44,216 bases of DNA from Roseicyclus sp. (lineage in GTDB: Bacteria; Pseudomonadota; Alphaproteobacteria; Rhodobacterales; Rhodobacteraceae): positions 1 through 44,216 of the forward strand of contig JAESTV010000210.1 in the NCBI GenBank assembly GCA_016763475.1. The letters run 5' to 3'. The notes beneath the pieces were generated by a model. It was not told where the DNA came from and made no database searches. It was given only the letters and a program-made list of their open reading frames with translations. Of the stretch, positions 21,425 through 40,083 are shown piece by piece. The translations under genes were made by a program, and so were the position numbers. The stretch's first letter is position 1; every line of letters begins with the position of its first letter.

Positions 21425-22728
21425 TTAACCGCCTTGAGTTGCCGCAAAGCGCGCCAACAGATCGTTGGATTCTGCTTCGATGATAGCGAATGCGTCATCC
21501 ACAGACGTCTCACCCGTCAGAATGCGACCGTATTCACGGTTCATCACGTCACGGATCTGGACGTAGAAGCCCATGCGGTAACCGCGTGTCCATTCACCAG
21601 CTTCAAGCGACAGCTGCTGGATGCCAACTTCGGCAGCCGGGAACTCAACGTAGTGCCCCTGCTCGGCAGCTTGCTCATAAGCGGCCGTGGTGATCGGCAC
21701 ATAGCCGGTTTCCATGTGCCACAGGACCTGTGTGTCCGAGGATGCGAGGAAGTCGAAGAACGCCGCGGTTGCTGCGTTTTCATCGGCCTCAAAGCCAGAC
21801 ATTGCGAACAGGGCCGCACCACCGATGAAGGTTTGTGTCGGCTCTGTCGTCACAGCTTCCCAATAGGGCAGCATGGTGGCGGAGAAGTTGAATTCCACCG
21901 ATCCTGAATGCCACCAAACGAGCCGGACGAGCCGAGCCACATGGCAACTTCGCCTGCCTCAAACGGGTTCTGGTTGTCAGCCCAACCGGTGCCGTACCAG
22001 GAGAAAAGGCCAGCCTCCTGCCAGTCAACCAGCGCCTGGAAGTGGTTCCGGATGGCGGGGTGGTTCACCAGAATCTCGGTGTCGATGCCGGTATATCCGT
22101 TGTCATTGGTTGCAAACTGCAAGTTGTGACGCGAGAAGAAGTTCTCGGTAAAGATCCACGGCAGGTGGCTTTGTGCCAGCGGAATATAACCCGCAGCAGC
22201 AAGCGCCGGCCCGGTGGTTTCGGCGAACTCTTCCCAGGTGGTGGGGGCTTCAACACCGGCCTCGGCCAACGCGTCTGCGTTATAGTACAAGATTGGCGTG
22301 GAGGAGTTGAACGGCATGCCGATCATGGTGCCATCGGCGTCAGCGAAGAAGTAGCGAACGCCGGGGATGTAATCCTCGATATCGAAGGCTATGCCGTTGT
22401 CGGCCAGAAGCGTCTCAACCGGAATGGTTGCGCCTGTGGCCCCGATCACGGTGGCGGCGCCTGCATCAAAAACCTGCACAATATTGGGCTGCTCGCCGGC
22501 GCGGAACGCGGCGATCGTCGCGGTCAATGTTTCCTCATAGCTGCCTTTGAAAATCGGGGTAATGACGTAGTCACCCTGACTTGCGTTGAAGTTCTCGGCA
22601 ATCTGGTTAACGGACTCACCAAGCTGGCCGCCCATCGCGTGCCAGAACTCGATCTCGGTCTGAGCCTGGGCCGCACCGGCCATAAGGCCAAGTGCAAGGC
22701 CGACACCTGCAGTTGTTTTGAAGGTCAT
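21425..22728 (-). pseudogene. ugpB: ABC transporter substrate-binding protein, UgpB-like, with apparent 1-nt frameshift
   Basis: N-terminal part (MTFKTTAGVGLALGLMAGAAQAQTEIEFWHAMGGQLGESVNQIAENFNASQGDYVITPIFKGSYEE...) and C-terminal part (SVEFNFSATMLPYWEAVTTEPTQTFIGGAALFAM...) lie in different frames, joined near 21900; one inserted base restores GIQDSVEFNF. Confidence 0.8.
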
Positions 22729-23112
22729 TCGATTCTCCCATCTGTCGTGCAACCCGTTTCGGGCAGCTCAATACGCAACACACCGCCGACAATTTCGTCG
22801 GTCGGGTGGATTTCTCATTTTCCGGGCAACACAAATGCAGTGTCCCCCCCGGATCTCCGCGCGAGGTCTAACCTACACGCTGTTCGACAGAGTGCAAATG
22901 GCTTGGCGATGTATGCCAATCCGGTGCGTCACTGCCCTAGTACGTTGCCGATAGGCCGAGTCTGTGACGGGGGTGTGACAGCAAGTGAAATACAGCGTTG
23001 GGGTGGAATCACGCGAAAGTCGGGCCTGCGACGGGCGAATCCAATCTGATCAACGGGTTGGGGTTTTTGATCGAGTGTGGCGCGTTGACAAATGCCACTG
23101 CCTGCATCCGCC

Positions 23113-24277: not shown

Positions 24278-26659
24278 GTGCTGGACAATCCCTACCCCAC
24301 TGTAAGAGCCGGGCCACCGAAGCCAAGTACTGTCATCAAACCGGCTGTATTTTCGCTACCGCCAGGGACGGAACGATATGTGGTTGAAGGCTGTGGCGCA
24401 GTCCTGATCCCGATCGAACCGGGTGATCGGATACGGATCGAAAACACCGAAGGTGGTCAGCCCTGCGAAATCGTTTGCGCTGACGCCCGCGGGCGCTCGG
24501 ACCTCGGCATTCTGGGAGAGGTTGGCGGCGCGCCAGCTGCCGGATTGCAACGGCTGCTTGCCGGTTCTGACCGGTCTTTGCGGGGCTTGCGTCTGGGATT
24601 GGAAACCCGCGGGATTGATCTGGCGCAGATCCAGGCGATCCACCTGTTTGAGGCCACGACGCCGGCGAAAACGGAGGCGGAATTCACCGCGACCCGCGAC
24701 GGCGTGGTGGTGATAGCAGCCCCCCACCCCAACCCATCAGGCCAGATGGACTATGAGGTGCAGGACACCGCCTCTCCGCTGACGGTTTGGGTCACACGCG
24801 CGGTGATAAAGTCCCATGTGAAGTTTGAGCTGCCCGATCCCCTGGCGGAGCCGATCGATAACATTCGGGTCCACACATCCACCGCAGAAGCGTATTTTGT
24901 GAAAGCTGGCGACTACATCCAGATTATCGACGTTGATGGCCGCCAATGCACGGATTTTGAATGCTTCTCGGCACGTAAGCTGGACCAGGGCATTGAACAT
25001 GCCCTCGACGTGACAACCACGCGAACCTTGATGGGGCGGGACTACCCGATGCCGGGGCTACACGCGAAATACTACGATCAGGAACTGCTGCCGCTGGTGC
25101 AGGTTGTGCAAGACACCTGCGGGCGCCATGACGCGTTTGCGCTGGCATGTTCGGCCAAATACTACAACGACATGGGTTACCCCGGACACGTCAATTGTTC
25201 CGAGAACTTCAACGCAACACTGGCCCAGTTCAATGTCGCACCGCGAAGCGGTTGGATGGCGATCAACTTCTTCTTCAACACCGCCATCGACGATCATGGC
25301 GTGATGTATGGGGATGAACCGTGGTCGCGCCCCGGTGATTACGTGCTGCTGCGCGCCCTGACCGATGTGGTCTGCGTAACCTCCGCCTGCCCCGATGACA
25401 CCAGCCCGGCCAACGGCTGGACTCCAACTGACATTCACGTGCGCACCTATAGTGGTGCTGAAAGCTTCCAACACGCCATCGCCACTCGAGCGACACCTGA
25501 TGCGGATCCAAAAATGACCAAACAAACCGGCTTTCACAACTGCTTCGCCCGTCACACCCGCAACTTCATCGAGTACAACGGCTACTGGCTGGCCAGTTGC
25601 TTTGCCGAGACCGGTCCGATTGAGGAATATCACGCCTGCCGTGAGGCGTGTGTGATCATGGATCTTTCGCCGTTGCGAAAGTTTGAGATCACCGGCCCGG
25701 ACGCCGAGGCGCTGTGCCAATATGTGTTCACCCGCAACATGAAGACACTGGCCATCGGCGCCGTTGTCTATACCGCGATGTGTTATGAGCATGGCGGGAT
25801 GATCGACGATGGAACCGTCTTCCGCCTTGGAAAGGATAACTTCCGCTGGATCGGCGGCAGTGACTTTGGCGGCGAATGGATCCGTGAGCAGGCCGAAAAA
25901 CTGGGGCTCAAGGCCCATGTCCGCTCATCCACCGATCAGTTGCACAATGTCGCGATCCAGGGACCAAACAGCCGCGATCTGCTGAAAACACTGATCTGGA
26001 CCGCACCCCACAACCCGGAATTCGAGCAACTTGGCTGGTTCCGCCACACCCCGGCGCGCCTGCGAAATGAAAGCGGCACTGCCTTTGTGCTGTCACGGAC
26101 CGGATACACCGGTGAGTTGGGGTATGAAGTCTTGTGCCACCCCAAAGATTGCGAAGAAATTTTTGAGGCGATCTGGGAGGCGGGAAAACCATTCGGTCTG
26201 AGGCCCATGGGGCTGGAGGCGCTGGATATGGTGCGGATTGAGGCTGGCCTGGTCTTTGCAGGTTACGATTTCAGCGACCAGACCGATCCGTTTGAAGCCG
26301 GGATCGGGTTTACCGTGCCGCTGAAATCCAAACCCGACGATTTCATCGGCCGTGACGCCCTGATCCGCCGCAAGGAACACCCGGCGCGCAAATTCGTGGG
26401 CATCGATATCGACAGCAATATCGACGTGGCCCACGGCGATTGCATCCGCATCGGGCGCGCACAAATCGGCGAGGTCACATCCTCCATGCGCTCGCCGATA
26501 TTGGGCAAGAACATCGCCTTGGCGCGGGTCGATGTGGCCCACCATGGGCTTGGCACAAAGGTAGAGATCGGCCAGCTTGACGGCCATCAAAAACGCCTCC
26601 CGGCTGAGATTGTGCCGTTTTCCCATTACGATCCACAAAAGACCCGGCCCCGGTCGTAA
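24278..26659 (+). CDS. tdm: Trimethylamine N-oxide demethylase-type protein (DUF1989 + GcvT/THF-binding domain)
   Basis: 793 aa, GTG start with AGGAGGG RBS; N-terminal DUF1989 (DYIQIIDVDGRQCTDFECFSARKLDQG, DTCGRHD, CVTSACPDDTSPANGW) fused to GcvT (FAETGPIEEYHACREACVIMDLSPLRKFEITGPDA...). Neighbourhood is a methylated-amine locus. Confidence 0.88.
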   Translation: MLDNPYPTVRAGPPKPSTVIKPAVFSLPPGTERYVVEGCGAVLIPIEPGDRIRIENTEGGQPCEIVCADARGRSDLGILGEVGGAPAAGLQRLLAGSDRSLRGLRLGLETRGIDLAQIQAIHLFEATTPAKTEAEFTATRDGVVVIAAPHPNPSGQMDYEVQDTASPLTVWVTRAVIKSHVKFELPDPLAEPIDNIRVHTSTAEAYFVKAGDYIQIIDVDGRQCTDFECFSARKLDQGIEHALDVTTTRTLMGRDYPMPGLHAKYYDQELLPLVQVVQDTCGRHDAFALACSAKYYNDMGYPGHVNCSENFNATLAQFNVAPRSGWMAINFFFNTAIDDHGVMYGDEPWSRPGDYVLLRALTDVVCVTSACPDDTSPANGWTPTDIHVRTYSGAESFQHAIATRATPDADPKMTKQTGFHNCFARHTRNFIEYNGYWLASCFAETGPIEEYHACREACVIMDLSPLRKFEITGPDAEALCQYVFTRNMKTLAIGAVVYTAMCYEHGGMIDDGTVFRLGKDNFRWIGGSDFGGEWIREQAEKLGLKAHVRSSTDQLHNVAIQGPNSRDLLKTLIWTAPHNPEFEQLGWFRHTPARLRNESGTAFVLSRTGYTGELGYEVLCHPKDCEEIFEAIWEAGKPFGLRPMGLEALDMVRIEAGLVFAGYDFSDQTDPFEAGIGFTVPLKSKPDDFIGRDALIRRKEHPARKFVGIDIDSNIDVAHGDCIRIGRAQIGEVTSSMRSPILGKNIALARVDVAHHGLGTKVEIGQLDGHQKRLPAEIVPFSHYDPQKTRPRS

Positions 26660-27076
26660 GTGATGCAGAGTGCCCTGGATCAGATCGGCGGCGAAGACGC
26701 ATTGCAGCGTCTGGTGACCCGGTTCTACGACCTGATGGAAAGTGACCCAGCGCTCTATGCGCTTCATCGGCTACATTTTCGCGGCCACGGGTTAAGCCTT
26801 ACGCGGGAAGAGCAGTTCAATTTCCTTTGCGGCTTTCTGGGTGGGCGGCGGTATTATCAGGAACGTCACGGCCATATGGACCTGCGTGAGATTCATGCTC
26901 ACGTTCCGATCCGCAAGGCCGACGCAGAGATGTGGCTTGCCCTGATGGACCGTGCGTTGGCCGATTGCGGGATGAGCGGTGACGTGGTGGAAAAATTCCG
27001 TGTCGGCCTGAGGCGGGCCGCCCTGATGGTGGTGAATGAGGTGCCGGATTGGCGCACAGGGGAGACAAACGCGTGA
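26660..27076 (+). CDS. Truncated hemoglobin-like globin
   Basis: 138 aa, GTG or ATG start; GGEDALQRLVTRFYDLMESDPALYALHRLH...EEQFNFLCGFLGGRRYYQERHGHMDLREIHAHVPIRKADAEMWLALMDRAL, group II-like trHb pattern. Confidence 0.88.
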   Translation: MMQSALDQIGGEDALQRLVTRFYDLMESDPALYALHRLHFRGHGLSLTREEQFNFLCGFLGGRRYYQERHGHMDLREIHAHVPIRKADAEMWLALMDRALADCGMSGDVVEKFRVGLRRAALMVVNEVPDWRTGETNA

Positions 27077-27456
27077 AACACGTCTTGAGTGCGATATTTG
27101 GCGCCGCCCTTGCCGTAGGGGCGGCTCACGCGCAGCCCACGGCGGTGAAATTGACCGCCAGTGAAATCACCCAGCTTCTGACCGGAAACACTGCCATTGG
27201 GGTTTGGGAGGGGGCGTACCGGCAGTTCTTTGGGGCCGACGGGGTGACGTTGTTTGCACAGGATGGCGTAAGGACCGCTCGTGGGGAATGGCGGGTTGAT
27301 GTGGAAGAGGACGAATACCAAAGCCTCTGGGCATCTGATGTGGATTGGGAGGGCTGGTTCATCATGCAATGGCATGAAGAGTATTACTGGGTCAGCCGCG
27401 CCACACCGCCCACCCTGTTTGATGTGGTGGAGGGGCAGCAATTGCTCGGGGAATGA
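27073..27456 (+). CDS. Small secreted protein of unknown function, translationally coupled to globin
   Basis: GTG start overlapping globin stop (GTGA); signal peptide VKHVLSAIFGAALAVGAAHAQ; Trp/acidic-rich mature region. Confidence 0.75.
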   Translation: MKHVLSAIFGAALAVGAAHAQPTAVKLTASEITQLLTGNTAIGVWEGAYRQFFGADGVTLFAQDGVRTARGEWRVDVEEDEYQSLWASDVDWEGWFIMQWHEEYYWVSRATPPTLFDVVEGQQLLGE

Positions 27457-27489
27457 ATATCCGTCGCGACCCTTGGCACGGATTTTTTG

Positions 27490-27867
27490 ATGGCCGTCCT
27501 GTTGCCCACACCCTTGATCGCGCAGGATCGGCCGTTTTGTGAGGCCATTGTGCAGTTGCAAACCCTTGCGCCGGGACCAGTCAATCATTCCGCTCTGCCC
27601 CATGTTCCACTACCCACGCCGAACCCACCGGAGCCGACGTGTGGCTTCACGCTCGGCCTTTCGGGGTCGCGGTCGGTCTATTGCGGGTGGCCGTTTGCAT
27701 ATCGCTCCGAGGTCGCCACCGAGGCCTTTGAGGCCCTGCTACATGCGGTTTCTGTTTGCGTGGGGGGCGCCGATACACCCGACTCCGGTAGCCGGGTCAA
27801 TATCATCCTGACAGCTATGATCTTCGGCTATTTACCACCGCGAACACGACCTTGGCCGGGTCTTTGA
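27490..27867 (+). CDS. Small secreted Cys-containing protein of unknown function, C-terminus possibly frameshifted
   Basis: MAVLLPTPLIAQDRPFCEAIVQLQ...TCGFTLGLSGSRSVYCGWPFAYRSEVATEAFEALLHAVSVCVGGADTPDSGSRVN; an alternative frame after about 27800 gives HPDSYDLRLFTTANTTLAGSLKDKASLQETCVFLRVGEAP. Confidence 0.55.
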   Translation: MAVLLPTPLIAQDRPFCEAIVQLQTLAPGPVNHSALPHVPLPTPNPPEPTCGFTLGLSGSRSVYCGWPFAYRSEVATEAFEALLHAVSVCVGGADTPDSGSRVNIILTAMIFGYLPPRTRPWPGL

Positions 27868-27984
27868 AGGACAAGGCAAGTTTGCAGGAAACCTGTGTGT
27901 TCCTGCGGGTGGGGGAGGCGCCCTGACCTCTGCCGTCCCAAAAAACTGAGGCCAGTCCGGCGCCCCACCGCCCCCAGAAAAAGC

Positions 27985-29319
27985 TCAGATATCCAGCGTG
28001 TTGTCCTTCTCCCACTGGGAGAAGTGAGAGGTGTAGGCGTTCCATTCCTGCATCTTCAACTTGAGGAAAGCTGCGCTGAATTCTTCGCCCATTGCGGCTT
28101 TAAGGGCCTTGTCCTTGTCATACTCCCGCAGGGCATCCAGCATGTTCAGTGGTAACTTCGGCGCACCGCGGACCTTGTGACCTTCGGCATACATATCAAT
28201 GTCGTGCCGTTTTCCCGGATCAGCCTTGCTGCGCAGGCCCGAGAGGCCGGTTGCAATGATGATTGCCTGCAGAAGGTACGGATTGACCGCGCCATCGGGA
28301 AGGCGCAACTCGAACCGGCCCGGGCCGGGCACACGCACCATGTGGGTGCGGTTGTTGCCAGTCCACGTCACGGTATTTGGTGCCCATGTGGCACCTGACA
28401 TGGTGCGTGGCGCGTTGATACGTTTGTAGCTGTTGACGGTTGGGTTGGTGATCGCCGCCAGGGCGGACGCGTGCTTCATGATGCCGCCAAGAAAGTGGCG
28501 GCCTTTGTCCGACAACCCAAGTTCTGCGGTTTGGCTGCTGTCATCGGGCTCCATCGCAAAGACGTTGACCTTCGACGCGGCCCCCGGCGCATCCCAGACC
28601 GAGATGTGGGCGTGACAGCCGTTGCCAGTCAGCCCCTCAACCGGTTTGGGCATGAATGTTGCGCGGAAGCCGTACTTCTCGGCCACACATTTGGCCATGA
28701 ATTTGAAGAAGCTGTGCTTGTCAGCGGTCTTGAGGGCGTCATCAAAGTCCCAATTCATTTCCCACTGGCCGTTTGCGTCCTCGTGATCGTTTTGGTACGG
28801 GTTCCAGCCTAATTCCAGCATATGATCGCTGATTTCACGGATCACATCGAGGCGGCGCATAAAGGCTTGCTGATCGTAACAGGGCTTTTCTGCGGTATCA
28901 AAGGCGTCCGAGATCGCGTCACCTTGTGGCGTCAGCAGGAAAAATTCAGCCTCCACTCCGGTTTTGACGTACAGGCCATCTTTCGCCGCCTCGGCAATCA
29001 GCTTGCGCAGCACGTTTCGGGGGGCTTGCTCAACCGGCTTGCCTTCCATCACGCAATCGGCGGGAACCCAGGCAATTTCCCGGTTCCACGGCAGGATAAT
29101 GACGGCGTCAGGGTCCGGCACAGCCAGCATATCGGGGTGGGCGGGGGTCAGATCCAGCCAAGTGGCGAAACCCGCAAAACCGGCACCGTCTTCCTGCATG
29201 CCGGCAATCGCACGTGCAGGCACCAATTTGGCCCGTTGCCCGCCAAACAGGTCAGTGAACGAAATCATGAAGTATTTGACGCCGTTTTCCTCGGCGAAGG
29301 CCGCCAGATCGATGGTCAT
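27985..29319 (-). CDS. gmaS: Gamma-glutamylmethylamide synthetase (glutamine synthetase family)
   Basis: 444 aa from MTIDLAAFAEENGVKYFMISFTDLFGGQRAKLVP; NPYQNDHEDANGQWEMNWDFDDALKTADKHSFFKFMAK; GNGCHAHISVWD; adjacent to mgsABC. Confidence 0.9.
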   Translation of the reverse strand: MTIDLAAFAEENGVKYFMISFTDLFGGQRAKLVPARAIAGMQEDGAGFAGFATWLDLTPAHPDMLAVPDPDAVIILPWNREIAWVPADCVMEGKPVEQAPRNVLRKLIAEAAKDGLYVKTGVEAEFFLLTPQGDAISDAFDTAEKPCYDQQAFMRRLDVIREISDHMLELGWNPYQNDHEDANGQWEMNWDFDDALKTADKHSFFKFMAKCVAEKYGFRATFMPKPVEGLTGNGCHAHISVWDAPGAASKVNVFAMEPDDSSQTAELGLSDKGRHFLGGIMKHASALAAITNPTVNSYKRINAPRTMSGATWAPNTVTWTGNNRTHMVRVPGPGRFELRLPDGAVNPYLLQAIIIATGLSGLRSKADPGKRHDIDMYAEGHKVRGAPKLPLNMLDALREYDKDKALKAAMGEEFSAAFLKLKMQEWNAYTSHFSQWEKDNTLDI

Positions 29320-29402
29320 TGTTGAGTTCCCTGTCGTATTCTTTTTGCCAGTCTTGAACCGGAATCGGGCAGGACCATTGCGGTCCCGCCCGATCGCCAT
29401 TG

Positions 29403-30809
29403 TTAATAGGAGGTGCCCGGCTTTCCGGGATACCAATTGGTGCCCGCAAGCGGGATTTTGGCCATCGCCGCCGCCTCCATCGTCAAGGCGCACAGATCCT
29501 CAGGCTCCAGATTGTGGAGATGGCTCTTGCCGCAGGCGCGCGCGATGGTCTGGGCCTCAAGGGTCATCACCTTGAGGTAATTGTTGAGCCTGCGCCCACC
29601 CTCAACCGGATCAAAACGCGCCATCAATTCCGGGTCTTGTGTGGTGATGCCCGCCGGGTCACGGCCCTCGTGCCAATCATCGTAGGCCCCAGCCGTGGTG
29701 CCAAGCTTCTGGTATTCATCTTCCCAGCGCGGATCATTGTCACCCAGCGCAATCAGGGCGCCGGTGCCGATCGCCACGGCATCTGCACCCAAAGCCATAC
29801 ATTTGGCCACATCCGCCCCGGTGCGGATCCCGCCCGACACGATCAGCTGCACCTCCCGGTGCATCCCCATATCCTGCAACGCGCGCACCGATTCACGGAT
29901 ACACGCGAGGATCGGCTGGCCGACGTGTTCAATGAACACATCCTGTGTCGCCGCCGTGCCACCCTCCATCCCGTCAAGCACCACAACATCGGCACCGGCT
30001 TTAACCGCCAGCGTTGTGTCAAAATAGGGCCGCGCCCCGCCAACCTTGATGTAGATCGGGACTTTCCAACTGGTGATTTCACGCAACTCGAGGATCTTGA
30101 TTTCAAGATCATCGGGACCAGTCCAATCGGGGTGACGACACGCAGAACGTTGGTCGATCCCTTTGGGAAGGTTGCGCATTTCGGCCACGCGGTCGCTGAT
30201 CTTTTGCCCCAAAAGCATACCGCCGCCGCCGGGTTTGGCCCCCTGCCCCACCACAACCTCAATTGCATCAGCCCGCCGCAGATCGTCCGGGTTCATGCCG
30301 TAACGTGACGGCAGATATTGATAGACCAGTTTATTGGAATGGCCGCGCTCTTCCTGGGTCATGCCGCCGTCGCCGGTGGTTGTGGAGGTGCCCGCAAGGG
30401 TAGCGCCACGACCAAGCGCCTCTTTGGCGGGGCCTGAGAGTGCGCCAAAGGACATGCCCGCAATGGTGATCGGGATATCCAGCTCAATCGGATTGCTGGC
30501 GTGGCGAGCGCCAAGGGTCACAGAGGTCTCACATTTTTCGCGGTAGCCCTCCAGCGGATAGCGGCTGATCGAGGCCCCCAGAAACAGCAAATCGTCGAAA
30601 CTGGGAACCTTCCGTTTCGCGCCGCCGCCGCGAATGTCGTATATCCCCGTCGCCGCTGCCCGCCGGATCTCGGCGTTGATTGACTGCGAGAAGGTGGCGG
30701 ATTGGACCGGTGTTGTCTGCGGAGGGCCGTCGGTATCGGTGTCTTTCACAATCTTGCCCTCAATATGCGTTGTCGATGTTGAAATTATAGAGCTTTCTGG
30801 CTGAGCCAT
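29403..30809 (-). CDS. mgsC: N-methylglutamate synthase subunit C (FMN-binding glutamate synthase-like)
   Basis: GltB-like FMN domain: MSFGALSGPAKEALGRGATLAGTSTTTGDGGMTQEERGHS, QGAKPGGGGMLLGQKIS, LIVSGGIRTGADVAKCMALGADAVAIGTGALIALG. Start approximate. Confidence 0.88.
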   Translation of the reverse strand: MAQPESSIISTSTTHIEGKIVKDTDTDGPPQTTPVQSATFSQSINAEIRRAAATGIYDIRGGGAKRKVPSFDDLLFLGASISRYPLEGYREKCETSVTLGARHASNPIELDIPITIAGMSFGALSGPAKEALGRGATLAGTSTTTGDGGMTQEERGHSNKLVYQYLPSRYGMNPDDLRRADAIEVVVGQGAKPGGGGMLLGQKISDRVAEMRNLPKGIDQRSACRHPDWTGPDDLEIKILELREITSWKVPIYIKVGGARPYFDTTLAVKAGADVVVLDGMEGGTAATQDVFIEHVGQPILACIRESVRALQDMGMHREVQLIVSGGIRTGADVAKCMALGADAVAIGTGALIALGDNDPRWEDEYQKLGTTAGAYDDWHEGRDPAGITTQDPELMARFDPVEGGRRLNNYLKVMTLEAQTIARACGKSHLHNLEPEDLCALTMEAAAMAKIPLAGTNWYPGKPGTSY

Positions 30810-34376: not shown

Positions 34377-35522
34377 ATGGCTATCTTATGGAGAACATCC
34401 GTCTTGGGGCACCGCCACGCCGAGATCGGCGCCGAACTTGAAGATTGGAACGGGATGGGCACGGCGTGGTATTACGACCACACACCCGAACGGGCGCAGG
34501 CAGATTACGAGACGGTCCGCACCAAAGCGGGCCTCATGGATGTCTCGGGCCTCAAGAAGGTCCATATCGTCGGTCCGGATGCCGCACACGTGATTGACCG
34601 CGTCACCACACGTAATGTCGAAAAGATCATGCCGGGCCGCTCCACTTATGCCTCAATCCTGAACGACGATGGCAAGTTCATTGATGATTGCATCATCTAT
34701 CGTCTGTCGGTGAACACGTGGCTGGTTGTCCACGGCACCGGCTCGGGCATGGAGCAGCTATCCGCCGTTGCTGCCTCGAAGAATTGCACACTGATCTTTG
34801 ACGACGACATGCATAACATTTCCTTGCAAGGCCCGGTGGCCGTTGATTTCCTGGCTGACCGGGTGCCGGGCATTCGCGATCTGGCCTATTTCGGGATCAT
34901 GCAAACCAAGCTGTTTGGCTGTCCCGTCATGATTTCGCGCACTGGGTATACCGGTGAGCGTGGGTATGAGATTTTCTGCCAGTCCAAACATGCGGTGCAA
35001 TTGTGGGATCAGATCTTGGCGGAAGGGGCCTCGGTGGGGATCCGCCCGGTGCAGTTCTCCACCCTCGATCTGTTGCGCACCGAAAGCTATCTGCTGTTTT
35101 ACCCCGGCGACAATTCCGAGACCTACCCGTTCGACGATGAGCCCTGCGGCGATACCCTGTGGGAGTTGGGGCTGGAATTCACCGTTTCGCCCGGCAAGAC
35201 CAACTTTATCGGAGCCGAAAACCACTATTCGGCGAAGGGCAAGGAGCGTTTCAAGATCTACGGGGTGATGCTTGAAGGAACTGTGGCCGCTGATGAGGGC
35301 GCAGACCTGTTGCAGGACGGCAAGAAAGTTGGCGTTGTCACCTTCGGCATGTACTCCAGACTGAATCGCCACTCAGTGGGCATCGCGCGGATGCCGGTGG
35401 CTTGCGCAGTTCCCGGAACCCCTCTGACAGTGCGAAACGGCGACGGAGCCGAAATAGCCTGTACCGCCCAGGAGATGCCGTTTTACGATCAGGACAAATC
35501 GATCCGCACCGCCAAAGGCTGA
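34377..35522 (+). CDS. dmmD: GcvT-family aminomethyltransferase, DmmD-like
   Basis: 381 aa; HAEIGAELEDWNGMGTAWYYDHTPERAQADYETVRTKAGLMDVSGLKKVHIVGPDA; ISRTGYTGERGYEIFCQ; first gene of a dmm-type operon. Confidence 0.82.
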   Translation: MAILWRTSVLGHRHAEIGAELEDWNGMGTAWYYDHTPERAQADYETVRTKAGLMDVSGLKKVHIVGPDAAHVIDRVTTRNVEKIMPGRSTYASILNDDGKFIDDCIIYRLSVNTWLVVHGTGSGMEQLSAVAASKNCTLIFDDDMHNISLQGPVAVDFLADRVPGIRDLAYFGIMQTKLFGCPVMISRTGYTGERGYEIFCQSKHAVQLWDQILAEGASVGIRPVQFSTLDLLRTESYLLFYPGDNSETYPFDDEPCGDTLWELGLEFTVSPGKTNFIGAENHYSAKGKERFKIYGVMLEGTVAADEGADLLQDGKKVGVVTFGMYSRLNRHSVGIARMPVACAVPGTPLTVRNGDGAEIACTAQEMPFYDQDKSIRTAKG

Positions 35523-35585
35523 CCCAATCATCGGGTGCCCGTTTGCGGGCACCCATTCTTCGAAAACCAGAGAGCACGCGACCCA

Positions 35586-36188
35586 ATGTCGAAATTTCAA
35601 TTTCCCGACAGCATCCTGAGCCGCCCCGTTTACGGAACGCTTGCGCCACGTCAGGGCAAATCGCACCTGATGATTGCTGACGCCGAGGGCGCTGAAGCGA
35701 TCCTTGATCTGGCAGCACGTGACGCGGGCCTGATGTCCAACTCACATATTATCTACATCCCCAAGGGCACGGATTTTGCACCGAAGCTGGGGGCTCTGTC
35801 AGTTGCGCAGCTTTACGTGGGGCCATCCTACGAGGCCTCGCTCCCCCGCCTGCGCCATGTGCTGGCCAACGCCCATCAGGGGCTTCAGGTCTATCTGGCC
35901 GGCACGGAGGGCCTGATCGGCCAAGCCCAGAACGAGGCCATGCGGGCTGGCATATCACCTACCTCGATCCAGACCGAACATCGCGGATCGGTGGCACGTC
36001 GGATGCAATGTGTGCATTGCAAAGGCATCACCGAAGACGTAATGCACGACCCGTTCCAATGCGCTCATTGTGGATTACATCTGTTTGTGCGTGACCATTA
36101 CTCCCGTCGCCAGGCGGCTTATCAGGGCGTTTGTGTTGACGCGGAAGATCCGGGCAGTGCCCCCGACCCTGTGGAATTGTATTCATGA
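35586..36188 (+). CDS. dmmA: Dimethylamine monooxygenase subunit DmmA-like (C-terminal zinc ribbon)
   Basis: MSKFQFPDSILSRPVYGTLAPRQGKSHLMIADAEGAEAILDLAA...RRMQCVHCKGITEDVMHDPFQCAHCGLHLFVRDHYSRRQAAYQGVC. Confidence 0.82.
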   Translation: MSKFQFPDSILSRPVYGTLAPRQGKSHLMIADAEGAEAILDLAARDAGLMSNSHIIYIPKGTDFAPKLGALSVAQLYVGPSYEASLPRLRHVLANAHQGLQVYLAGTEGLIGQAQNEAMRAGISPTSIQTEHRGSVARRMQCVHCKGITEDVMHDPFQCAHCGLHLFVRDHYSRRQAAYQGVCVDAEDPGSAPDPVELYS

Positions 36189-37168
36189 ACACCCCCCCCC
36201 AAAAATCCAGGCCCGGCGCCGAGCAGATCCCCGTTGTTGTAAGCGCGATTGTACCGCTGAATGATCTGGTCACCCGGTTTGAATTTTGCCGCCCCGACGG
36301 CCAGGAGTTTCCACCGTTCTCGGGTGGTGCTCATACTGTGGTCGAAATGCGGGACCATGACCGCACCCGCCTTAATCCCTATTCGTTGACCAGTGACCCG
36401 TCCGATTCCTCGATCTACGCAATCTCGGTCCGGCGCGACGAACAAGGGCGGGGTGGATCGCTATTCATGCACCGCTCTGTCTCGGTGGGTGACGCGATGA
36501 ACATCACTTATCCGGTGAACCTGTTCTCACTTGACCTGCGGGCAAAAAAGCACCTGTTTCTGGCAGGCGGCATCGGCATCACGCCGTTCATGTCGATGAT
36601 CGCGCAGTTGGAACGGATGACTGGCAACTGGGAGCTGCACTATTCGGTGCGGAATGAGGCGTTGGGGACTTATGTGGACCAACTGCGCTACAAATATCCC
36701 AACAAGGTCCATGTGTATTACTCTGATCAGAACCAAAGGATCGGGCTGGAACAGCTGCTGGACGGCCAATCACTTGGCACCCATGTCTATGTCTGCGGAC
36801 CGACGGGTATGATTGATCAGGTCCATGGCGCAGCAGCCGCTGCCGGGTGGCCCGAGGAACATACCCATTCCGAAGAATTCCTCGCGCCTCAGCCCGGAAA
36901 ACCCTTTGAGGTGCGCCTGTGCAAATCCGAACTGACAATCCAGGTCGGCGAAAACGAAAGCCTTCTGGAGGCGATTGAGCGGTCCGGGGTAGACGCCCCG
37001 TATCTGTGCCGTGGCGGTGCCTGTGGTCAGTGTGAGACCGACGTGATCCGTGCCGATGGTGAATTTGTCCACCGCGATCACTGGCTGGACGATGAACAAC
37101 ACTCAAGTGGCCAGAAGATCATGCCCTGCGTCAGCCGATTCCTTGGCACGTTAGAGCTGGATCGTTAG
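36185..37168 (+). CDS. dmmB: Flavodoxin/ferredoxin reductase with 2Fe-2S domain (PDR/VanB type), dimethylamine monooxygenase reductase subunit
   Basis: HLFLAGGIGITPFMSMIAQLERM; PYLCRGGACGQCETDVIRADGEFVHRDHWLDDEQH (2Fe-2S). ATGA overlap with dmmA. Confidence 0.85.
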   Translation: MNTPPQKSRPGAEQIPVVVSAIVPLNDLVTRFEFCRPDGQEFPPFSGGAHTVVEMRDHDRTRLNPYSLTSDPSDSSIYAISVRRDEQGRGGSLFMHRSVSVGDAMNITYPVNLFSLDLRAKKHLFLAGGIGITPFMSMIAQLERMTGNWELHYSVRNEALGTYVDQLRYKYPNKVHVYYSDQNQRIGLEQLLDGQSLGTHVYVCGPTGMIDQVHGAAAAAGWPEEHTHSEEFLAPQPGKPFEVRLCKSELTIQVGENESLLEAIERSGVDAPYLCRGGACGQCETDVIRADGEFVHRDHWLDDEQHSSGQKIMPCVSRFLGTLELDR

Positions 37169-37238
37169 GGCACGGCGCGCGTAATCCCGAATTTGGCTGC
37201 CGGTTTTCCAACCAGACAAGGCAGCAGGAGAGACTAAG

Positions 37239-38357
37239 ATGACCATTCAGTTCAACGAAGAAACCTTCCGCGACGACTATTCGTTCCACAATTCGGCGCG
37301 GGCAATCAAACGCTTTCCGTTCCCGTTTCATGAAGACAGCTACATGTATTCTGTGAACATGGAGCAGCATCGGGGCGGGCCGGAAGGCTCGGTCTATGAG
37401 AACCGGTTTGATGTCGACGAGCACTATCTGGCCGAGATGCGCGACCGGGCGATGGTGTTGGCCGACGATCCGTTACGCTGCCAGTCCCTGCCACATATGA
37501 CATTGGCGGGGTGGGACCTGTTGGAGGTGATCATGGTCTCCAAGTCCGAGGATTACCCGGACCTGTTTGAACTGCACCGCGACGGCGATCGTTGGCGCTG
37601 GATCAACAAACCTATGGGGATTGACGACACATTCACCTTTCTGGACGAGACCACCCTGCCCTACGGGCCGATGGAATACATCACACGTCAGGCACAGGGT
37701 GATTTCTGCATTCTCGATCAACGCGATGAGATGTTGTGGATGGATGCCGGTATGATCACCACTCAGGCTGATTGGAGTCTGGATTTTGACATCGGGATGA
37801 ATTTCTTTGAGTGGCACGCTCCGGTCCCGTTGGCCCATGAACTGGGTATCTTTACACGGGCGCTGAAGTTTCTGCTCAACATCCCGCAAGGGGCGCCGGC
37901 GCGGCGGTTGAACTGGACCATGACCGTGAACCCGCTTCTGGATACCAGCCCCGAAAACTACCACAAATGGGGCATCCAGAAAACCTCCCTCACGCCAGAA
38001 AATGTCGGCTCAAAACAACACCTCCGCGTGGAATTGCAGACCTTCTTCCGGCTTCCGCGATCCAACGCCCTTGTGTTCCCGATCCGGTGTTACCTGATTG
38101 CGTTCCAAGACCTCGTGAGCATGCCAAAATGGGGCCGTCGCATGCATCGTGTATTGCGCGAATTGCCTGATGAGTTGGCCACATACAAAGGCTTCATTGA
38201 TAACCGGCCGATGATGCTGGACTATCTGAGCAAGTTTGACGACGGGCAGCCGACCTCACCCGGCGTGTGGCCGGACCCAGAAACCGAGCCACCGCTCAAT
38301 ACGGAAATTCGCAATCACACCGATGGTAATTCGGTCGATCACAACCGCTCTGCTTAG
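37239..38357 (+). CDS. dmmC: Heme-dependent oxidative N-demethylase family (DUF3445), dimethylamine monooxygenase subunit
   Basis: 372 aa; FPFPFHEDSYMYSVNMEQHRGGPEGSVYENRFDVDEHYLAEMRDRAMVL...RQAQGDFCILDQRDEMLWMDAGMITTQADWSLDFDIGMNFFEWHAPVP; VELQTFFRLPRSNALVFPIRCYLI. Confidence 0.85.
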   Translation: MTIQFNEETFRDDYSFHNSARAIKRFPFPFHEDSYMYSVNMEQHRGGPEGSVYENRFDVDEHYLAEMRDRAMVLADDPLRCQSLPHMTLAGWDLLEVIMVSKSEDYPDLFELHRDGDRWRWINKPMGIDDTFTFLDETTLPYGPMEYITRQAQGDFCILDQRDEMLWMDAGMITTQADWSLDFDIGMNFFEWHAPVPLAHELGIFTRALKFLLNIPQGAPARRLNWTMTVNPLLDTSPENYHKWGIQKTSLTPENVGSKQHLRVELQTFFRLPRSNALVFPIRCYLIAFQDLVSMPKWGRRMHRVLRELPDELATYKGFIDNRPMMLDYLSKFDDGQPTSPGVWPDPETEPPLNTEIRNHTDGNSVDHNRSA

Positions 38358-39001
38358 GTGTTTTGCGGGTAGCTGATGATCGCAAGGTAACGTGCCGGCA
38401 GATCCACAAGTGTCTCTGGCCCATGGGGGGCGTCGGCATCGAAATGAAGGGTGTCGCCCGGGCGCAGGGGGTAGACGGTATCCCCGTGCCGGTAATCCAC
38501 GGCCCCTTCCAGCATGTAAATTGTCTCAATCCCGCCGTGTTGGAAGACCTTGAAGGTGTCGGACGTGCTGTTGAGCGTGATCAGGTACGGCTCAACCAGC
38601 ACCCCGCTGGAATTGGACCCGATGTGCCCCAGCAGATTGTATTGGTGCCCGGCACGTGTGCCGTCTGAGATCACAACCGAGCCTTCGCCGGACTTGGTGT
38701 GAATGGCTTCACGGCGTTCCTCAAACTTCCGGAAAAACGCCGTCAACGGCACCGAAAGCGCGTGTGAGAGGTTTTCCAACGTTGTCAGCGACGGCGATGT
38801 GTTGCCATTCTCGATCTTGGACAACATGCCGATCGACAACCCTGTCATCCGCGACAAGTCCGCCACGGTAATGTTTTGCCGTTTGCGGTAGGCGCGTACC
38901 TCTCGCCCAATCGCCACTTCCAGAATCTTTTCCCGCTGTTCGCGGACGGAATGGGGATCCTGCATCAGAACCGGTTTCACGTTGCTTTTCGTCTGACCCA
39001 T
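38354..39001 (-). CDS. XRE-family transcriptional regulator with cupin domain
   Basis: 215 aa; RKRQNITVADLSRMTGLSIGMLSKIENGNTSPSLTTLENLSHALSVPLTAFF + cupin VDYRHGDTVYPLRPGDTLHFDADAPHGPE. Confidence 0.92.
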   Translation of the reverse strand: MGQTKSNVKPVLMQDPHSVREQREKILEVAIGREVRAYRKRQNITVADLSRMTGLSIGMLSKIENGNTSPSLTTLENLSHALSVPLTAFFRKFEERREAIHTKSGEGSVVISDGTRAGHQYNLLGHIGSNSSGVLVEPYLITLNSTSDTFKVFQHGGIETIYMLEGAVDYRHGDTVYPLRPGDTLHFDADAPHGPETLVDLPARYLAIISYPQNT

Positions 39002-39078
39002 TGGCGCTCCTCACGGCTGATGAACTCAGCCTACATACTTTCTTGTGGCGGGTGAAATTTTTCCCCACAGTTACACTC

Positions 39079-40083
39079 ATGGACCCCAGACGCCCAGAAA
39101 GAATCGGATTCCTGCTGTTTGACGGCTTTCCGATGGCCTGTCTTACGTCAATGATCGAACCAATGCGTGCCGCCAATGAAATATCCAAGACGGAGGAATT
39201 TCAATGGGTTCTTGTATCTGAGGGGGCGGCCAAGGTGATGGCCAGCGCCTCGGTCTCGTTTGAAACACCGCTGAGTTTGTCGGCGCAACTGCCAATTGAC
39301 TGCCTGATTGTGTTGTCAGCCCCCAAGGTTACGTTCACCTGCCCCCATACACCCGGACATCTGCGCGCCTTGGCGCGCCACGGCACAGTGCTGGGTGCGG
39401 TTTCGGGGGGGGTATTCCCGCTGGTGCGCAGTGGTGTCCCGCGACGTGGGCCGATCTCTGTCCATTGGTGTTATGAGGCGGCGTTCAAATCCGAGTTTCC
39501 TGATGTGGATTACTCAGATCAGGTCATCGAAATCACACCTGATTTGATGACCGCCTCTGGAGCCGCTGCCGCCTTCGACTTATCCCTGCAATTGATCCAC
39601 ACCCGCCTTGGCGCATCCCTGGCCACCGAAGTTGCGTGCTGGTTTCAGCACCCGATGATGCGCGGCAGCGACGTGCGGCAAGCCATTCCTGCGATCAGCA
39701 CCGCGGCGACAACCGAACAGGCATTGCCCAGTCGCGTCTCACGTACCATCGAGATCTATTCCGGTGCCCTGTCCACACCGCCCACATTGGCGCAGGTTGC
39801 AGCGGATATCGGCATTTCGACACGACAGCTGGAGCGATCCTTCAAGCAGGCAACTGGGTTGAACCCCACGAAATATCTGCGGCGCATGCGGATGAATGCG
39901 GCGCGCCAAATGGTGATGTATACCAACCAACCCTTCTCCAACATCGCCGAGACCGTTGGCTACAGCAGTGCCGCAACCCTGAAGCGCCACTATGGAGAGG
40001 CGTTTGGACTGACCCCAAAAGAAGACCGATCACGTATCAACCTGTTTCGGGTGTCGGGAAACGTGCCTTTACCGGCCACCTGA
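39079..40083 (+). CDS. GlxA-family AraC-type transcriptional regulator (DJ-1/PfpI domain + HTH)
   Basis: RIGFLLFDGFPMACLTSMIEPMRAANEI..., TLAQVAADIGISTRQLERSFKQATGLNPTKYLRRMRMNAARQMVMYTNQPFSNIAETVGYSSAATLKRHYGEAFGLTP. Confidence 0.92.
   Translation: MDPRRPERIGFLLFDGFPMACLTSMIEPMRAANEISKTEEFQWVLVSEGAAKVMASASVSFETPLSLSAQLPIDCLIVLSAPKVTFTCPHTPGHLRALARHGTVLGAVSGGVFPLVRSGVPRRGPISVHWCYEAAFKSEFPDVDYSDQVIEITPDLMTASGAAAAFDLSLQLIHTRLGASLATEVACWFQHPMMRGSDVRQAIPAISTAATTEQALPSRVSRTIEIYSGALSTPPTLAQVAADIGISTRQLERSFKQATGLNPTKYLRRMRMNAARQMVMYTNQPFSNIAETVGYSSAATLKRHYGEAFGLTPKEDRSRINLFRVSGNVPLPAT

Follow-up and report, generated by a model that had tools for sequence, protein, structure and literature searches.

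What are a truncated globin and two small exported proteins doing directly behind tdm, the gene for trimethylamine N-oxide (TMAO) demethylase? In the sea, methylated amines form a large pool of nitrogen, and the tmm-tdm-dmm-gmaS pathway for their breakdown is a textbook trait of Roseobacters. The window, the 44,216-nucleotide stretch of Roseicyclus sp. DNA analyzed here, makes up contig 144 of a draft genome (3.28 Mb in 320 contigs, 83% complete). Its features are listed in Table 1, where the two exported proteins are called P2 and P3. The pathway genes found around these small genes, in the window and in its relatives, are the same as in the methylated-amine cluster of Ruegeria pomeroyi and other Roseobacters, which consists of tmm, tdm, dmmDABC, gmaS-mgs, mgd and TmaR according to the parts of two papers that were consulted (PMC5520151, PMC13390433). 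A text search of these two papers returned no mention of a globin, and the parts consulted say nothing of exported proteins behind tdm. A literature search, covering few subscription journals, found no work linking a globin to tdm or tmm. Four papers that pair a truncated haemoglobin with trimethylamine look unrelated, as judged by their titles.

Table 1. Features of the tdm locus in the window
Feature	Position	Strand	Basis or remark
tdm, trimethylamine N-oxide demethylase	24278..26659	+	NF053776; first gene of the transcription unit
Group II truncated globin, tdm-linked subfamily	26660..27076 (start GTG 26660 or ATG 26663)	+	PF01152
P2, small exported protein, predicted 8-stranded beta-barrel	27073..27456	+	GTGA overlap with globin
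P3, exported four-cysteine protein, frame-disrupted in the window	27453..27926	+	Profile matches in two frames; translations; intact relatives
Site of tmm (trimethylamine monooxygenase) in relatives (- strand there); absent in the window	27927..27984	.	
gmaS, gamma-glutamylmethylamide synthetase	27985..29493	-	Convergent neighbour, conserved across relatives; named from pathway context and the initial annotation, not from a family model
dmmDABC, DMA monooxygenase operon of the same pathway	34377..38357	+	Pfam GCV_T; DmmA-like_N/_C; Fer2 and NAD_binding_1; HODM_asu-like

The product of the first gene scored 1189.7 bits against NF053776 in an NCBIfam search, above the curated cut-off of 1100. 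Its TAA stop codon occupies 26657-26659 and is followed without a gap by the globin gene. The globin and P2 overlap by 4 bp (GTGA), as do P2 and the probable start of P3 (ATGA). When the junctions between tdm, globin, P2 and P3 were searched, no sigma-70-like promoters and no plus-strand terminator-like sites were found between the genes. By its layout, tdm-globin-P2-P3 appears to be a single transcription unit; co-transcription is likely because of the 4-bp overlaps and the lack of an internal terminator. The initial annotation had described a globin and two secreted genes inserted between tdm and gmaS. The order of tdm, globin and P2 and the GTGA overlap stood, while the third gene proved to be frame-disrupted and the picture of an insertion did not hold.

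The third open reading frame as first called (27487-27867) is part of a gene only. A P3 family profile was built from 40 sequences and used on the window's genome. Profile positions 5-98 match 27490-27801, and positions 99-136 match 27804-27917 in a different frame. The conserved end of the family, VNHPDxYD...SLKDK...VFLR, runs on out of frame to a stop codon at 27924-27926. The frame change was placed between 27801 and 27804, where the window has an excess of two bases compared to the unbroken V-N-H-P-D of its relatives. Since the profile matches in two frames, we rejected the idea of an intact, short exported protein with cysteines, which is how this gene had been read initially. P3 probably starts at ATG 27453, within the overlap with the P2 stop codon. 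Because the frame of this ATG goes out of register with the rest of P3 at six consecutive T near 27481-27488, a second indel there is likely.

The breaks in P3 may reflect either decay or an assembly error. An assembly error has to be reckoned with because the draft consists of 320 contigs and a second gene, at 21425-22752, also looks frame-shifted. The two extra bases near 27798 are atypical for a homopolymer error. The gene at 21425-22752 (minus strand) encodes a sugar-binding protein, UgpB-like by eye, with two overlapping frames at about 21850-21940; this split may be an assembly indel error or a second pseudogene. In relatives with intact P3, the VNHPDxYD and SLKDK motifs and four conserved cysteines are present. 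P3 is missing or damaged in several P2 loci, and its median dN/dS of 0.25 in relatives points to purifying selection.

The apparent insertion between tdm and gmaS is due to the absence of tmm from the window. In the intact order, tdm-[globin]-P2-P3 converges on tmm, identified in relatives by NF058570, and gmaS follows; tmm thus has P3 on one side and gmaS on the other and is read from the opposite strand. No tmm was found in the window's draft genome, where one weak, partial match (31%) to Tmm was seen. The organism may use TMAO but not TMA. A link between loss of P3 and loss of tmm was considered; it is not general, since several P2 loci without P3 retain tmm.

The evidence that ties these genes to methylated amines comes from other genomes. 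In a sample of 298 genomes of the family, tdm is present in 80, and the tdm-type globin, called at E 1e-15 or better, is present in 23. A tdm match accompanies the globin in 22 of these, and in the remaining genome (L244) tdm is cut by the contig end. In 17 of the 23, the globin is part of the tdm operon, where it follows tdm immediately or comes after P2. The other six globins lie outside tdm operons: two by gmaS (L242, L246), one near dmmDABC, flanked by amtB and sarcosine oxidase genes (L247), one behind folD (L243; PF02882) and two elsewhere (L245, L248), so that four of the six are in methylated-amine or folate-C1 loci. Fisher's test for globin and tdm gave p 7e-15 (23/23), or 5e-13 without the tdm at the contig end, and that for P2 and tdm gave p 5e-6 (9/9 genomes); these values overstate the certainty, since related genomes are not independent. 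Co-occurrence with tdm is far above chance, with the p-values as a guide only. In the rest of the class, sampled with 237 genomes, no member of the globin subfamily turned up.

A P2 profile scan of 84,980 species genomes yielded 77 loci. Immediately upstream of P2, tdm or tdm-globin was found at 62 of them, and 57 of these 62 converge on tmm. Seven arrangements were seen at the 62 loci: P2-P3 (23), globin-P2-P3 (13), P2-globin-P3 (9), globin-P2 (9), P2-globin (4), P2-P3-globin (2) and P2 alone (2). The 23 P2-P3 loci have no adjoining globin, and many tdm loci carry the globin alone. Globin, P2 and P3 are thus separable. Many tdm loci, including every one whose Tdm is under about 60% identical to that of the window, lack all three genes, which means that none of the three is essential for TMAO demethylation. 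Rhodobacteraceae isolates that carry the module include Octadecabacter dasysiphoniae, Planktotalea frisia and Roseovarius marisflavi (loci L190, L189 and L221). At three loci (L172, L182, L191), P2 and P3 are fused in one open frame. At the L172 locus (L043:10406-11064), a gene pair that is antitoxin/Doc-like by eye lies between the fusion and tmm.

Away from tdm, too, both exported proteins are found next to methylated-amine genes, so that each meets such genes on more than one occasion. Of nine P3 relatives examined outside tdm operons, four (L262, L264, L265, L266), without P2, lie directly before mttB. PF06253 matched at 1e-231 or better in the three of these loci that were tested, and the fourth mttB was assigned from its resemblance to those three. 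On the other side of the P3-type gene in these four loci is guaA; they form a second methylated-amine context for P3. A P2 relative lies directly after dmmC of dmmDABC, confirmed as HODM_asu-like, in a Rhizobiaceae-group MAG (L234:2227-6454). Some P2-like and P3-like proteins are found beside unrelated genes. The initial annotation had seen in these genes the best candidate for an accessory module not yet described, to be refuted if homologues failed to co-occur with tdm or the globin. The idea withstood this check, as the homologues do co-occur with tdm and with each other.

The globin matched PF01152 (Bac_globin) at 4e-22 with 79.1 bits, above the gathering score of 21. Alignment to solved group II globins assigned its pocket residues as Y23 (B10), Q52 (E11), H79 (F8) and W92 (G8); Y23, H79 and W92 are invariant in 56 of 56 tdm-type globins aligned to 2bkm and 5d1v. 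Judged by these residues, the globin is a group II truncated haemoglobin with a canonical pocket. The same Tyr B10, Gln E11, proximal His F8 and Trp G8, as well as PF01152, are found in the HbO-type globins of Agrobacterium (2xyk), Geobacillus (2bkm) and Bacillus (YjbI, 1ux8). The closest solved relative by profile is 2xyk, which also has a His at CD1, as does the tdm-linked globin (H39). In contrast to the known group II globins, the tdm-linked globin has an insert of two residues relative to 2xyk and of five relative to 2bkm and 5d1v, and the subfamily conserves H43, G44, H47, G58, M73 and H81. The 56 sequences have H39, H43, G44 and H81 in common, and thus extra conserved histidines. Position 47 is His in 52 of the 56 and Leu in the window, so the extra-His pattern is incomplete there. 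The subfamily is also set apart by its gene, which is tied to tdm and, within the samples taken, was found only in the window's own family. A median dN/dS of 0.08 in relatives indicates purifying selection.

P2 starts at GTG 27073, inside the globin stop codon, and its N-terminus, MKHVLSAIFGAALAVGAAHAQ, was judged by eye to be a signal peptide. Neither P2 nor P3 has a recognized family, as the initial annotation had surmised: the window proteins against Pfam and NCBIfam and the family alignments against Pfam gave no family above cut-off, and searches against PDB sequences gave no match. The P2 model (pLDDT 90.9) is an eight-stranded barrel, rich in conserved aromatic residues, and its best PDB match is 4u3q, the TP0435 (Tp17) lipoprotein of Treponema pallidum (probability 1.00, TM 0.71 by target length, E 0.011), with the barrel part alone aligning. 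The modeled P2 would thus resemble TP0435 as a small beta-barrel. However, the two are 17% identical and come from different organisms and contexts, and no lipobox cysteine was seen by eye among 69 sequences of the P2 family, in which the signal region ends in AHAQ/AQS. Membership of P2 in the TP0435/Tp17 family was rejected due to this lack of a lipoprotein signal; only the predicted fold is similar. TP0435 is a periplasmic or surface lipoprotein reported, in the part of the source consulted, to mediate adherence rather than to act in metabolism (PMC4861935). P2 is under purifying selection in relatives (median dN/dS 0.08). The P3 model (pLDDT 87) is an alpha/beta protein without a convincing fold match: the best Foldseek match in the PDB had E 0.03 and TM of at most 0.41. 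It weakly resembles alpha-beta proteins of the DcrB, Mog1p and LpqN types (6e8a, 1eq6, 6e5d), from which P3 differs by its four conserved cysteines and its HPD and KDK motifs.

From sequence, then, the conserved neighbourhood would mark globin, P2 and P3 as helpers of methylated-amine breakdown, and we infer their roles as follows. The globin, cytoplasmic and translated directly after Tdm, would most likely carry out NO and O2 chemistry where Tdm releases dimethylamine (DMA) and formaldehyde. As a scavenger of the NO dioxygenase type, it may protect the ferrous site of Tdm and the haem of DmmABC, and it may keep NO-derived nitrosating species off DMA, a secondary amine. NO-derived species nitrosate secondary amines, a reaction that formaldehyde promotes. 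Due to this chemistry, a globin would be useful at the Tdm step. The other half would be a periplasmic pair, the TP0435-like barrel P2 and the disulphide-type alpha/beta protein P3. Since some genomes encode P2 and P3 as a fusion, the two probably act together, most likely as a small methylated-amine-binding complex for TMA/TMAO uptake or retention. This role is favored because of the fusion and the independent links to methylated-amine enzymes. A point against the proposed mechanism is that P2 and P3 are exported, while Tdm is presumably cytoplasmic. Our tentative reading, possible though short of probable, is that the globin and P2-P3 form a conserved accessory module of the Rhodobacteraceae TMAO-demethylase operon, in two separable halves with these roles.

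Several other explanations were weighed. Tdm requires Fe2+ and Zn2+ but no O2, and its products DMA and formaldehyde appear in a 1:1 ratio (PMC12560246). Since the enzyme works with or without O2, a supply of O2 to Tdm by the globin was judged unlikely. The globin could instead supply or buffer O2 for the flavin-dependent Tmm and the haem-dependent DmmABC, so that the pathway runs at low O2. The Tmm and DmmABC genes are in the same cluster, some unlinked globins adjoin dmmDABC or gmaS, and Agrobacterium HbO is the closest solved relative by profile. We nevertheless find this explanation unlikely, since the constant partner of the globin is the O2-independent tdm product (PMC12560246) and the globin is retained where tmm is not adjacent, as well as in the window, which lacks tmm. 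Another possible explanation is that the globin, instead of scavenging, senses redox state or gases or is a second haem protein active on TMAO. Haem iron can accept oxygen from N-oxides, the linkage to tdm is strict, and the subfamily histidines and CD-region insert (H39, H43, H47, H81) suggest an unusual pocket or an extra metal site. However, the pocket residues are those of an ordinary group II globin, a sensor would lack both an output domain and a partner kinase, and the N-oxide reactivity is drawn from general chemistry only, which makes this role quite unlikely.

For P2 and P3, a general function in envelope stress, against formaldehyde or TMA toxicity in the periplasm and without binding of methylated amines, would fit the occurrence of similar proteins outside methylated-amine loci. 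It would also fit the best structural match of P2, TP0435, which in the part of the source consulted is reported for adherence rather than metabolism (PMC4861935). The strong linkage to tdm and the independent links of relatives to mttB and dmmDABC argue against it, and we see it as somewhat unlikely. The linkage could also be an inherited operon order without shared function, since the Tdm tree places all globin-linked loci in a single clade, which also contains the P2-linked loci. This is very improbable: the order varies (tdm-globin-P2-P3, tdm-P2-globin-P3, tdm-P2-P3-globin) while membership is constant, which argues for selection, and the genes also relocate to other methylated-amine or C1 loci and P2 and P3 fuse. 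Beyond the accessory module that we prefer, the tdm-linked globin could represent a class of truncated haemoglobin with a new function, acting directly on methylated-amine chemistry either by reacting with TMAO or by removing NO to block nitrosamine formation from DMA and formaldehyde, with P2-P3 as a new type of periplasmic methylated-amine receptor. We consider this combination a long shot.

While both the pathway and the superfamily of the globin are known, the expanded TMAO-demethylase operon, the distinct globin subfamily and the two unnamed exported families appear to be new. A conserved globin and two unnamed families tied to Tdm in many species would be further parts of the methylated-amine pathway. 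The module offers a direct route to the question of the bacterial function of group II truncated globins, and to how cells cope with the simultaneous release of dimethylamine and formaldehyde.

Two further observations were made in the course of this analysis. At L147-L164, divergent Tdm-like proteins have 40-46% identity and score under the NF053776 cut-off; in many cases the genes that come next encode ABC transporters that by eye resemble quaternary-amine uptake systems. These Tdm-like proteins may demethylate another substrate. Next to dmmDABC in the window, a gene for an AraC-type regulator (39001-40083, plus strand), GbdR-like but under the NCBIfam cut-off, adjoins one for an XRE-cupin regulator (38354-39001, minus strand). 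The AraC-type protein may be the TmaR of PMC13390433.
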